Positions 8,613-63,360 of a DNA stretch of 64,000 nucleotides are shown in pieces. The stretch's first letter is position 1; the number at the start of each line of letters is the position of its first letter. Below the pieces are notes generated by a model that was not told the DNA's origin, did no database searches, and was given only the letters and a program-made list of their open reading frames with translations. The stretch is from assembly GCA_015065935.1 (NCBI GenBank), contig SVPI01000002.1:106548-170547 (forward strand), in the 5' to 3' direction. Origin of the DNA: Oscillospiraceae bacterium. Lineage in GTDB: Bacteria; Bacillota; Clostridia; Oscillospirales; Acutalibacteraceae. Both the position numbers and the translations under genes were made by a program.

Positions 8613-8622
8613 TTTTTAATAA

Positions 8623-8952
8623 GCGAGTTGACCTGTAAGCCGAGTTCTGTCGTGAACGACCATCTATCTTGGCGCACCATTGCTGATGCGCTCCAGCCGC
8701 TTTTCCCGACACATCGGGCAAATGTGTTGTCGGAGTCAGCGTTGCTTCGGATAGGGTTTACAGGCTCTTTTAGTCTCCTAAAAGAGCGGTGAGCTCTTAC
8801 CTCGCCTTTCCACCCTTACCTGAAAAATCAGGCGGTATATCTCTGTTGCACTTTCCCTAAGGTCACCCTCGGCGGCCGTTAGCCGCTATCCTGCCCTGTG
8901 AAGCTCGGACTTTCCTCAGATGTTGCCATCCGCGGCCGTTCAGTCAACTCGC
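8623..8952 (-). ncRNA. rnpB: RNase P RNA component
   Basis: Reverse strand GCGAGTTGACTGAACGGCCGCGG...GAGGAAAGTCCGAGCTTCACAGGGCAGG...ending in ...GTCGTTCACGACAGAACTCGGCTTACAGGTCAACTCGC; 5'/3' ends pair. Confidence 0.93.
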
Positions 8953-10207: not shown

Positions 10208-10377
10208 ATATAAATTTTTCTCCCGCCCTGCCGTAAACGGTTAATTGATAACCTGCACTCAGACAGGTGGGTGCCTTTAGTGCGGTTTCGCGCTCCCTTC
10301 TTCCGAACTCGGCACAGCCGCGGGAGGTCTGCAAACCCGCCGCACGAAATCAGGCTCCCTAAAAATAGCTTGTAGGG
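10200..10377 (-). ncRNA. ssrS: Putative 6S RNA
   Basis: Minus strand has 'GGGAGCCTGATTTCGTGCGGCGGGTTTGC...GTGCCGAGTTCGGAAGAAGGGAGCGCGAAACCGCACTAAAGGCACCCACCTGTCTGAGTGCAGGTTATCAATTAACC', 6S-like; ends close as CCCTACAA/TTGTAGGG over ~178 nt. Confidence 0.6.
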
Positions 10378-10420
10378 TTATAATAGGCCGCGGTCCGCGA
10401 ACAAGGCAGGATTTTAAAAT

Positions 10421-20732: not shown

Positions 20733-21010
20733 TAGGGTAGAGCGAATAATCCGAACTCCGTTTTTAAAAGGCGGATTTTCGCTCATACTTTGTTAAAATA
20801 CTCGTTAATCCGTCAGGATTAACTGCGTTTTGTGCCGCGTCTGAACAAAAATTCGCTCTTTTAAAAATCTTTGACCTCAAAGAGAGAAGATTTCGAGTGA
20901 TTTTTATTCAGTACAGGCGCAGTAAGGCTGACGCCTTGCAAGAATGGAATGGGTAAAAAGCGCCGAAATAAGCCTCTTTGAGGCGGGTTTGGATTATTCG
21001 CTCTACCCTA
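20733..21010 (-). repeat. Palindromic intergenic element, copy 1 (same family as 61743-62017)
   Basis: 20-bp perfect terminal inverted repeats TAGGGTAGAGCGAATAATCC (20733-20752) / GGATTATTCGCTCTACCCTA (20991-21010); shares internal blocks with copy 2. Confidence 0.85.
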
Positions 21011-57267: not shown

Positions 57268-57302
57268 TGTAATTTCACCTCCGAATGAAAAATAAATAAT
57301 TT

Positions 57303-57437
57303 GTCAATAAAAATCGCCTATCCCGAAAGACACGAGATAGGCGGAATAATACTTTAAAAATTAAAGAATTGTTCGCACACCTCGGTAGGCCATTTCTTTA
57401 CACCGTTTAAACGGAACCTACTGTCTTCGGATTAGCA
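57303..57437 (-). promoter_or_regulatory. Ribosomal protein L10 leader
   Basis: Minus strand 'CCGAAGACAGTAGGTTCC...TAAAGAAATGGCCTACCGAGGTGTGCGA...CTCGTGTCTTTCGGGATAGGCG' upstream of rplJ. Confidence 0.85.
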
Positions 57438-57443
57438 TAAAGG

Positions 57444-57472
57444 ATTTTACCACGAAATTTATCCGTTGTCAA
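57444..57472 (-). promoter_or_regulatory. Sigma-A promoter of rplJL
   Basis: TTGACA - 17 nt - TAAAAT on minus strand. Confidence 0.8.
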
Positions 57473-60460: not shown

Positions 60461-60943
60461 TTATTTATGATATTCTCCGCCCGAGCTTATCATAAATGCT
60501 CTGTAAATCTGCTCTAAAAGCATAACGCGTGCAAGCTTGTGGGGGAATGTCATTTTAGACATTGAAAGGCGAACACGTGATAGAGCCTTTATCCTGTCGG
60601 CAAGGCCATAGGAGCTACCTATTATAAATACAAGACTTCCGCTGCCGAAATCGGCAACCTCCATAATCTTTTGGCTCAGCTCCTCGCTTGAAAGCTGTTT
60701 TCCCTCAATGCAAAGGGCAAAAACCTCGGCGTTTTGGGGGATTTTCTTTTCTATCAGCGCCGCCTCGGCCAAAAGGGCGTTTTCAATTTGGGAGCGTGAC
60801 GGATTATCGGGCAAAGCGGCAGGGTTTATTTCCACCGTTTTAAGCTCGCAAAAACGGGAAAGCCGCTTTTCATATTCCTTTGCGGCATCAATAAAAAACT
60901 TTTCCTTTAACCCGCCAAGAACAATAAGCGTTACCTTTATCAC
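60461..60943 (-). CDS. rlmH: 23S rRNA (pseudouridine1915-N3)-methyltransferase RlmH
   Basis: 'LVFIIGSSYGLADRIKALSRVRLSMSKMTFPHKLARVMLLEQIYRAFMISSGGEYHK'. Confidence 0.96.
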   Translation of the reverse strand: MIKVTLIVLGGLKEKFFIDAAKEYEKRLSRFCELKTVEINPAALPDNPSRSQIENALLAEAALIEKKIPQNAEVFALCIEGKQLSSEELSQKIMEVADFGSGSLVFIIGSSYGLADRIKALSRVRLSMSKMTFPHKLARVMLLEQIYRAFMISSGGEYHK

Positions 60944-61725
60944 AGCACAACCTCCCCGCAGCCATACTGCCCCGCGCAGAAAATCAGGTAATCCTCCCCT
61001 GCTACGGCGCCGATATCCATAAGGGCGGCCTTGGCGCAGGAAAGGGCAACGGCGTGGGTGTTGTTCTGGCGGCTTATGTGACCTAAAATAAAGCGGGTGG
61101 TGCCGCTTTTAAAAAGTGTCGGCAAAACCGCGGCGCAGGCATTGTTGGATAAGTGTCCGTGGTCGGAGCCAACGCGGAGTTTCAACTCGTGTGGATAGGG
61201 CCCGTCGCGCAGCATCTTTAAATCGTGGTTTGATTCAATAACCATTCCGCGGCAGCCCTTTAGGTTTTCCAAAACCTCATCGCTTACAAAGCCTAAATCG
61301 GTGCAAACGGCCACCGAGCAGGTGCCGCTTAAATTAAAGCGGTAGCCGCTGGAGCCCTCGCAGTCGTGGCTGGTGGCAAAACGGGTAACCTTTATGTTTT
61401 GAACTTCAAACTCACCATCCACCGCAATTAAGGTGTGGCTACCATCAAGAATTTCCTTTTCGGTGAGCGCCGCAAGTGTTTTTTCACTAGCGTAAACGGG
61501 AACGTTAATTGTTTTAAGCAAATTTTTAAGACCTTTAACGTGGTCGGTGTGCTCGTGGGTTATAAAAATACCTTTAACGGCTTCCTTTTTATAACCTCGT
61601 TTTTCAAGGGCATTTAAAATGCTTCTTGCGCTTACCCCTGCATCAACCAAAAAGGCAACGTTTCTTATACTTATATATGTACAGTTTCCATCACTGCCGC
61701 TAAACAGTGAACAAAGCTTTGCCAT
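60940..61725 (-). CDS. MBL-fold metallo-hydrolase (YycJ/WalJ-like)
   Basis: 'LCSLFSGSDGNCTYISIRNVAFLVDAGVSARSI', 'GIFITHEHTDHVKGLKNL', 'LGHISRQNNTHAVAL'. Confidence 0.92.
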   Translation of the reverse strand: MAKLCSLFSGSDGNCTYISIRNVAFLVDAGVSARSILNALEKRGYKKEAVKGIFITHEHTDHVKGLKNLLKTINVPVYASEKTLAALTEKEILDGSHTLIAVDGEFEVQNIKVTRFATSHDCEGSSGYRFNLSGTCSVAVCTDLGFVSDEVLENLKGCRGMVIESNHDLKMLRDGPYPHELKLRVGSDHGHLSNNACAAVLPTLFKSGTTRFILGHISRQNNTHAVALSCAKAALMDIGAVAGEDYLIFCAGQYGCGEVVL

Positions 61726-61742
61726 AAATTAAAAACCTCTTT

Positions 61743-62017
61743 AAGTTGGCGAGAGTCAAACCCGATACGGTTTCGCTCACCGCCTTTAATCATCTAACTT
61801 TGCGTATTTTTTTGCAAGGCGGCAGCCTTGCGGCAAAATTACGCTTCGTAAGCTTAATAAATTCGTTGGCAGAAACTCTTCGACCTTTCAAAACTAAAAT
61901 TTTCGTGTCAGAGGAAGCCGACAAAACGCAGAAATACCGGCGTATTTCAAGTTTTGAGGCAAACTATTACCGAAAATTTTGTTTTGAAGGCGTAACGCGT
62001 TCGACTCTCGCCAACTT
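61743..62017 (+). repeat. Palindromic intergenic element, copy 2 (same family as 20733-21010)
   Basis: 15-bp perfect terminal inverted repeats AAGTTGGCGAGAGTC (61743-61757) / GACTCTCGCCAACTT (62003-62017); shared blocks GCAAGGCG-CAGCCTT and ACAAAACGCAG-hairpin. Confidence 0.85.
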
Positions 62018-62019
62018 GG

Positions 62020-62046
62020 AAAAAGGGCGAACAGTGTTCGCCCTTA
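62020..62046 (-). terminator. Intrinsic terminator of murA
   Basis: AAAGGGCGAACA-g-TGTTCGCCCTT. Confidence 0.65.
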
Positions 62047-62064
62047 TATATTATAATGTATAAC

Positions 62065-63360
62065 CTATTCCGCTTTCAGAATTTCGCCGCCCTCAAAATA
62101 GGTAACCCTCTTAATGTCACCGCCAAGGGAAGAAAACTTCTGGACAACATCCTCATAGCCTCTGTCAATATGGCCAATGTCGGTAATTTCGGTGGTGCCC
62201 TCAGCCATAAGGCCTGCAATTATCATTGCGGCGCCTGCCCTTAAATCGGTTGCCTTAACGGGAGCGCTATTAAGCTTTTCAACACCCGTTATAACAGCCA
62301 TTTTGCCATCCACCTGAATGTCGGCACCCATAAGGGTTAATTGGTCAACATAACGGAAACGGTTATCCCAAACGCCCTCGGTAACAATGCTTGTGCCTTC
62401 ACACAAGGTCAGCATAGTGGCAATTTGGGGCTGCATATCGGTAGGGAAACCCGGGTGGGGCATCGTTTTAACATTGCAGCGCTTCGGGCGCTTGTCCATC
62501 TTTATGCGAACAGCCTCATCAAACTGCTCAATTTCGGCGCCCATTTCCGAAAGCTTTGATAAAATTGATTCAAGGTGCTTGGGGGTTACATTGGTAATTG
62601 TAACATCACCCTTTGTGGCTGCCGCCGCAGCAAGGTAGGTTCCCGCCTCAATCTGATCGGGAATAATGCTGTAGGTGGTGCCCTCAAGGTGTTCAACACC
62701 GCGAATTTTAATAATATTGGTACCTGCGCCCATAATGTTGGCGCCCATAGAGTTTAGGAAGTTGGCAAGGTCAACAATGTGGGGCTCTCTTGCGGCGTTT
62801 TCAATAACCGTCATACCCCTGACCTTCGTTGCGGCAAGCATAATGTTAATGGTGGCGCCAACCGACACAACGTCAAGGTAAATGGAGCAGCCGCCAAGGC
62901 GCTGTGCCCTGGCATCAACCATGCCGTTTTCAATGGTAACCTTTGCGCCCAGCGCTTCAAAACCCTTAATGTGCTGGTCAATGGGGCGAACGCCGAAATC
63001 ACAGCCTCCGGGAGGGGCCACGCGGGCGTGCTGCATGCGGCCAAGCAAAGCGCCTAAAAAATAACTAGATGCGCGCATTCCCTTTGCCATATCCTGGGTA
63101 ACAATAAAGGAGTTAACCCCTGTGGGGTCAATTTCCACCGTAGCAGAATCAATAACCTTTACCTTTGCGCCAAGGGCCGATAAAACCTTGTAAATTGCCG
63201 AAACATCGGAAATGTTTGGTAAATTTTCAATGCGACAGGGGCTGTCGGCAAGTAACACTGCGGGTAAAATGGCAACTGCGGCATTCTTTGCGCCGCTTAT
63301 GCGAACGCTGCCAACAAGCCTTTTCCCTCCGTTAATTACTATCTTCTCCAATTTCGGCAC
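62065..63360 (-). CDS. murA: UDP-N-acetylglucosamine 1-carboxyvinyltransferase
   Basis: 'GGKRLVGSVRISGAKNAAVAILPAVLLAD', 'PPGGCDFGVRPIDQHIKGFEALGA', 'HPGFPTDMQPQ', 'DLRAGAAMIIAGLMAEGTTEI'. Confidence 0.96.
   Translation of the reverse strand: MPKLEKIVINGGKRLVGSVRISGAKNAAVAILPAVLLADSPCRIENLPNISDVSAIYKVLSALGAKVKVIDSATVEIDPTGVNSFIVTQDMAKGMRASSYFLGALLGRMQHARVAPPGGCDFGVRPIDQHIKGFEALGAKVTIENGMVDARAQRLGGCSIYLDVVSVGATINIMLAATKVRGMTVIENAAREPHIVDLANFLNSMGANIMGAGTNIIKIRGVEHLEGTTYSIIPDQIEAGTYLAAAAATKGDVTITNVTPKHLESILSKLSEMGAEIEQFDEAVRIKMDKRPKRCNVKTMPHPGFPTDMQPQIATMLTLCEGTSIVTEGVWDNRFRYVDQLTLMGADIQVDGKMAVITGVEKLNSAPVKATDLRAGAAMIIAGLMAEGTTEITDIGHIDRGYEDVVQKFSSLGGDIKRVTYFEGGEILKAE

Follow-up and report, generated by a model that had tools for sequence, protein, structure and literature searches.

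Two segments of a 64,000-nucleotide stretch of an Oscillospiraceae genome (the whole stretch is called the window here) share a series of sequence blocks, and each folds back on itself through terminal arms of its own. One of them, A1, lies between a metallohydrolase gene and murA. The locus raises the question of what kind of element this is, and why its pairing is kept as its sequence changes. The reading favored below is that A1 and its relatives probably form a previously undescribed MITE-like, non-autonomous family, in which the folded core is conserved and the ends diverge in step between subfamilies.

Two copies in the window

The features of A1, its neighbors and the second copy, C1, are as follows.

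60940 to 61725, minus strand: MBL-fold metallohydrolase gene; the near end of A1 is about 17 nt upstream of the start codon, adjoining the Shine-Dalgarno sequence
61742 to 61743, no strand: left TA of the target duplication of A1
61743 to 61757, plus strand: left terminal arm of A1, AAGTTGGCGAGAGTC, the first base of which is part of the TA
61744 to 62016, plus strand: element copy A1 (family A), 273 bp excluding the target duplication
61814 to 61831, plus strand: tip hairpin of arm 1, GCAAGGC-GGCA-GCCTTGC, loop centre about 79 nt from the left end
61931 to 61948, minus strand: tip hairpin of arm 2, GAAATAC-GCCG-GTATTTC, the arm 1 motif on the minus strand, loop centre about 77 nt from the right end
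62003 to 62017, plus strand: right terminal arm of A1, GACTCTCGCCAACTT
62017 to 62018, no strand: right target duplicate of A1, reading TG
62065 to 63360, minus strand: murA, separated from A1 by a terminator-like hairpin at 62023-62045
20735 to 21008, minus strand: element copy C1 (family C), 274 bp, with TA on both flanks (20733-20734 and 21009-21010)

The bounds of A1 proper were set by the TA duplication, and the TG of its right duplicate is presumed to be a point change from TA. The A1 arms are exact complements over 15 bp and extend to 32 nt at 84% complementarity. In C1, which lies between genes for a Nif3-like protein and glutaminyl-tRNA synthetase, the arms TAGGGTAGAGCGAATAATCC and GGATTATTCGCTCTACCCTA match exactly over 20 bp. 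Folded as single-stranded DNA, A1 and C1 reach z scores of -8.6 and -10.5, and none of 200 shuffles of either copy was equally stable. The sole open reading frame overlapping A1 (105 aa) matched no family.

An earlier note on this DNA had described perfectly self-complementary arms, a shared order of blocks and an internal hairpin that differs between the copies and yet stays paired. All of these are present in A1 and C1 as it said, and the fold statistics exclude chance as their source. It had also taken the arms of the two copies to differ completely; they are not wholly unrelated, intermediate forms being present in copies from other genomes.

A family of mobile elements

The window's own genome (G000) is a draft of 1.48 Mb in 23 contigs, 87.5% complete. 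Each known copy was searched against it, and a profile search followed once the genome had been assembled from stretches; all copy counts are lower bounds. The census stands at 13 full-length copies plus fragments. Searches with the individual copies gave families A (four copies, A1 and three more), B (two) and C (two, one of them C1), along with fragments and the related C' and D. The profile search added three copies, two of family F on contigs C17 and C7 and one of family H on C23. Nearly all two-armed elements are 269-278 bp long, and a one-armed relative measures 160 bp. The family H copy (C23:39437-39747) is longer, at 311 bp, with interrupted arms AAAAGCACAGGA and ACGGAACGTACC.

The six longest exact inverted repeats in assembled G000 (scan for at least 13 bp, spanning 0.1-4 kb) are all copies of this family. 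Seven G000 copies carry perfect terminal inverted repeats of 15-28 bp, the best-preserved ones of 20-28 bp. Arm sequences fall into about ten types, each paired with its own partner, and at least five unrelated end types coexist in this one small genome. Beyond it, an exact scan for the hairpin motif hit 43 stretches in drafts of other Clostridia, whose sources include goat, sheep, deer and horse. The family occurs in several genera, and the further genomic copies called for by the earlier note do exist, in G000 and in other gut Clostridia. Searches of phages, plasmids and viral contigs for the family gave no match, the motif scan of viral contigs likewise gave none, and searches of a literature collection found no description of these elements. 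In one genome (G247) two elements are nested, a B-type copy lying within the hairpin stem of a C/D-type copy (L082, 1315-1592).

The joined flanks of the copies in G000 were used to search the congeneric genome G001, which lacks the element at the orthologous sites of six copies (A1, A2, B1, C1, C' and D). The TA duplication is clean in three of them. C1 reads TTCCT[TA]GGGTAGAG..CTCTACCC[TA]TTTC against the empty site TTCCTTATTTTTTTG (L171), C' reads CCAACT[TA]AGCAAACACG..CGTGTTTGCT[TA]AAATATT against CCAACTTAAAATATT, and D reads CATA[TA]AGCAAAGG..CCTTTGCT[TA]AAGGAG against CATATAAAGGAG. B1 and A1, the latter with the empty site CTCTTTATAAAAAAGGGCG (L175), are compatible with the same duplication, and A2 differs from its empty site by two extra bases. 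Because six copies have empty sites and three show a clear TA duplication, the elements are mobile, as the earlier note had suggested among other options, and they presumably move in trans. At the B2 locus, G000 carries a pure B element and G001 a mosaic (L180 / L075, G001:C73), of type B on the left and type C on the right, with the junction in the hairpin and the ends unpaired.

Short length, multiple copies, the lack of a transposase gene, terminal inverted repeats and a target-site duplication against an empty site are all found here, and assignment to the MITE class is well supported.

Hairpin tips at a fixed distance

Both arms of the element end in the same tip motif, CTTG-stem-GNCA-stem'-CTGCG. 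Since the copy in the second arm lies on the opposite strand, the element amounts to one half duplicated in inverted orientation. Nine different tip stems were found, nearly all fully paired and all set in a single loop frame. The distance from loop centre to the nearer end is 76-81 nt in nearly every copy that was placed, including families that hardly align otherwise, and in the one-armed 160-bp element of the genome G323 it is 80 nt on both sides. Exceptions are A4, gA1, L136, C', F and H, where one or both tips are decayed, misplaced or were not placed by the script, and the one-armed L115 and L131, which depart from the distance rule on one or both sides. With ends that change and hairpin tips and a tip distance that stay the same, the family offers a natural experiment for asking if transposition can rely on the shape of DNA.

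Covariation in the stem and both arms

Twenty-three elements were aligned, with some uncertainty for the most distant members (E, L103 and L113), and each strand of the alignment gives a fold with one terminal stem and two long arms. In the 14 sequences of families A and B, both sides have changed at 40 of 84 pairs, and 93.0% of cells are paired versus 84.8% in shuffles. The covariation score of this set was reached by none of 500 shuffles, and slid structures give 3-15 pairs. A tree-aware test, with each column simulated on the tree, took its structure from the fold of A1 alone, which lessens circularity. Of 95 variable pairs, 43 reached significance at p<=0.05 and 16 at 0.01, while shifted controls gave 4-12 at 0.05. 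The strong pairs fall in the terminal stem and in each of the two arms. A strict all-pairs test, underpowered with 20 sequences, returned one significant pair, which lies inside the structure. Compensatory change with pairing kept, which the earlier note had read from two copies, is found in the terminal stem and internal hairpins of up to 23 elements and withstands shuffled, shifted and tree-aware controls.

Any MITE with a transposase that binds both ends is expected to have identical ends, and for this reason covariation of the outer arms alone is no proof of a selected fold. Covariation inside the arms is stronger evidence, and it suggests that selection acts on the folded shape. Pair-breaking mismatches at conserved pairs comprise 45 G-T and 60 A-C overall, and 15 of each in family B. 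As they show no strand bias, an RNA read from a single strand is disfavored; a lack of strand preference is expected where selection acts on DNA, or on RNA of both orientations, and also where inserted copies are free to decay. Of the proposal that a folded RNA or single-stranded DNA is under selection, the fold is supported by the covariation inside the arms, and a non-coding RNA read from one strand is opposed by the unbiased mismatches, the mixed orientation of the copies and the lack of an Rfam match.

Pairing could also be a by-product, with template switching at quasi-palindromes or recombination between copies writing one arm onto the other and no selection on the fold. Several copies with perfect arms, the existence of mosaics such as the B/C element in G001 and the balance of G-T and A-C mismatches are in line with this explanation. 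It is nevertheless regarded as quite unlikely, for it leaves unexplained the conserved unpaired GNCA, CTTG and CTGCG and the fixed tip distance in families that can barely be aligned.

Other origins were considered and rejected. The segment GGGTTCGACTCTCG in the A and B arms resembles a T-arm, with GGTTCGACTC of tRNA-Pro as the best sharing with G000 tRNAs, and is absent in other families. On inspection by eye, the core sites do not agree with an integron attC, and no known structured RNA family in Rfam was matched.

The mobilizing enzyme

The DDE_3 (IS630-type) domain was found in none of 14 carrier genomes, which are incomplete drafts, and Y1_Tnp, DDE_Tnp_1, rve and Transposase_mut domains are absent from the drafts of four carriers (G000, G001, G011 and G115). 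Tyrosine recombinase matches number one to four in each of these four genomes, and also occur in 14 of 14 control genomes. In G000, copy searches and the genome-wide inverted-repeat scan revealed no autonomous partner with matching ends, and an all-against-all BLASTP made no multi-copy transposase gene evident. Because drafts lose repeats, the absence of transposases is weak evidence.

These searches bear on the REP- or BIME-type repeats mobilized by a RAYT or other HUH transposase, a possibility raised in the earlier note together with a look-up of the cognate enzyme. Imperfect palindromes with conserved loops do recall such repeats. The look-up found no Y1_Tnp domain in the four carriers, however, and long terminal inverted repeats, TA duplications and GNCA loops on opposite strands contradict the idea, the probability of which is close to negligible.

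A different possibility is that transposition is guided by structure, such that an enzyme would read the GNCA loop and CTTG/CTGCG internal loop of the extruded hairpins and cut the TA about 79 nt away, leaving the ends free to vary as long as they pair. The integron integrase, which reads folded attC sites, offers a likeness. This would account for the five or more unrelated end types of one small genome in which a search for five transposase domain families detected none, for the tip loop at 76-81 nt from each end across families, and for the covariation seen in both arms as well as in the terminal stem. On the other side, the candidate enzyme is only hypothetical, and the two loops occupy opposite strands, unlike those of single-strand HUH systems. 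This explanation is held to be possible, if unlikely, and the G323 relative speaks against it as well.

The G323 draft (the L098 genome; e.g., L109, L112, L185 and L197) harbors about 77 copies of the 160-bp one-armed relative, which is tied to the family by its hairpin core and by 50 bp of similarity to L103 extending past the searched motif. Its target duplication is of 3 bp, TAA or TTA. The ends, GAGCCTGTTTAGGATCTC, resemble the end GAGCCTATTCAAGATCTT of a resident IS5-family insertion sequence, with a match at about 14 of 18 bases, and would point to end recognition of the ordinary kind. The two-ORF IS (NF033580; L294:1477-2376) adjoins one copy of the element and the end of another, and DDE_Tnp_1 is present in G323. 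This genome also contains internally deleted forms of about 110 and 50 bp, with both ends retained, together with many single ends, some of them at contig ends.

In one survey most IS5/IS427 elements made 2-bp duplications (PMC3281130), and enzymes of this type could therefore also account for the TA. In the tested genomes carrying TA-flanked families, no DDE_Tnp_1 transposase was found. For the IS630 / Tc1-mariner type, the TA duplication is found, and DDE_3 is found in 0 of 14 hosts. Membership in an IS630-, IS5- or REP-type group is not supported by these tests.

For the MITE-like family favored here, the following mechanism may be envisaged. Each copy carries long terminal inverted repeats, and a duplicated TA typically flanks it. 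Either strand, when single or in a cruciform, can adopt a Y shape with a terminal stem made of the arms and two long hairpin arms. A transposase acting in trans, possibly IS5/IS427-like, would bind and cut at the two ends. The terminal repeats have diverged in step, and tracking of the transposase might be the cause. A folded or cruciform state may be important for mobility, or else for staying in operons without harm, and this may be why arm pairing and the fixed place of the tips are preserved.

Some observations sit uneasily with this reading, among them the single significant pair of the strict all-pairs test and the decayed or unplaced tips of some copies. The outermost bases are the most variable within one genome. 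For a single transposase these bases are usually the most conserved part, and the ends of ordinary MITEs are conserved because the transposase reads them. Copies also persist without paired ends, as in the B/C mosaic of G001, and G000 has no autonomous element with matching ends, while the five transposase domains are lacking in the four carriers searched. With an insertion polymorphism between two species, many end types and an apparent lack of the usual transposases, the question of the mobilizing enzyme is directly testable.

Relation to known elements

RUP and other small bacterial MITEs (Correia/NEMIS and ERIC) are similar to the family in being small, gene-less, mostly intergenic and strongly self-folding, with terminal inverted repeats. 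RUP, the repeat unit of pneumococcus, has TA as its insertion site, and its presumed mobilizer in trans is IS630-Spn1 (PMC2229807). RUP, Correia and ERIC measure 100-160 bp, whereas the new family is longer, its ends vary by subfamily, its tips and their distance are conserved, and 14 carriers lack DDE_3. TIMEs, the Tn3-derived miniature elements, share a near-constant length (262 bp) despite core divergence and similar folds (PMC4133298). Their 38-bp ends are conserved and their core is variable; in the new family the ends are variable and the core tips conserved. CIR, the Caulobacter CerM-associated intergenic repeats, also have two long inverted-repeat arms with a conserved tip motif (PMC2229807), but these arms are joined by a linker, without closing paired ends, and GANTC is present. 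BOX elements of pneumococcus are likewise repeated and folded, with mutually paired ends (PMC3049150). Their length varies with module number, in contrast to the nearly fixed length and tip distance seen here.

Insertion setting

In G000, 12 of 17 insertions have an end 0-7 nt from a Shine-Dalgarno sequence, versus 21% of intergenic TA sites (binomial p = 2e-5). Orientation relative to neighboring genes is mixed. This adjacency may merely reflect where insertions are tolerated, a survivor bias, or else a target preference. The elements, mostly beside ribosome-binding sites and some within operons such as murF-mraY, may shape expression in uncultured gut Clostridia.

The same setting could be attributed to a structured RNA, either a small RNA or a cis-regulator, repeated by chance and acting on neighboring operons. 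The abutment on Shine-Dalgarno sequences and the copies inside operons would suit such a role. Against it stand wobble-type mismatches free of strand bias, mixed orientation, the insertion polymorphism between two species and the lack of an Rfam match, and the adjacency may simply mark tolerated sites; this role is thought very improbable.

The copy between murF and mraY (G000 C11:36858-37132; L002) supplies part of the murF stop codon by its insertion. Elsewhere in the window, Rfam matches correspond to RNase P class A RNA (8620-8951), 6S RNA (10216-10415) and an L10 leader (57300-57448, minus strand).
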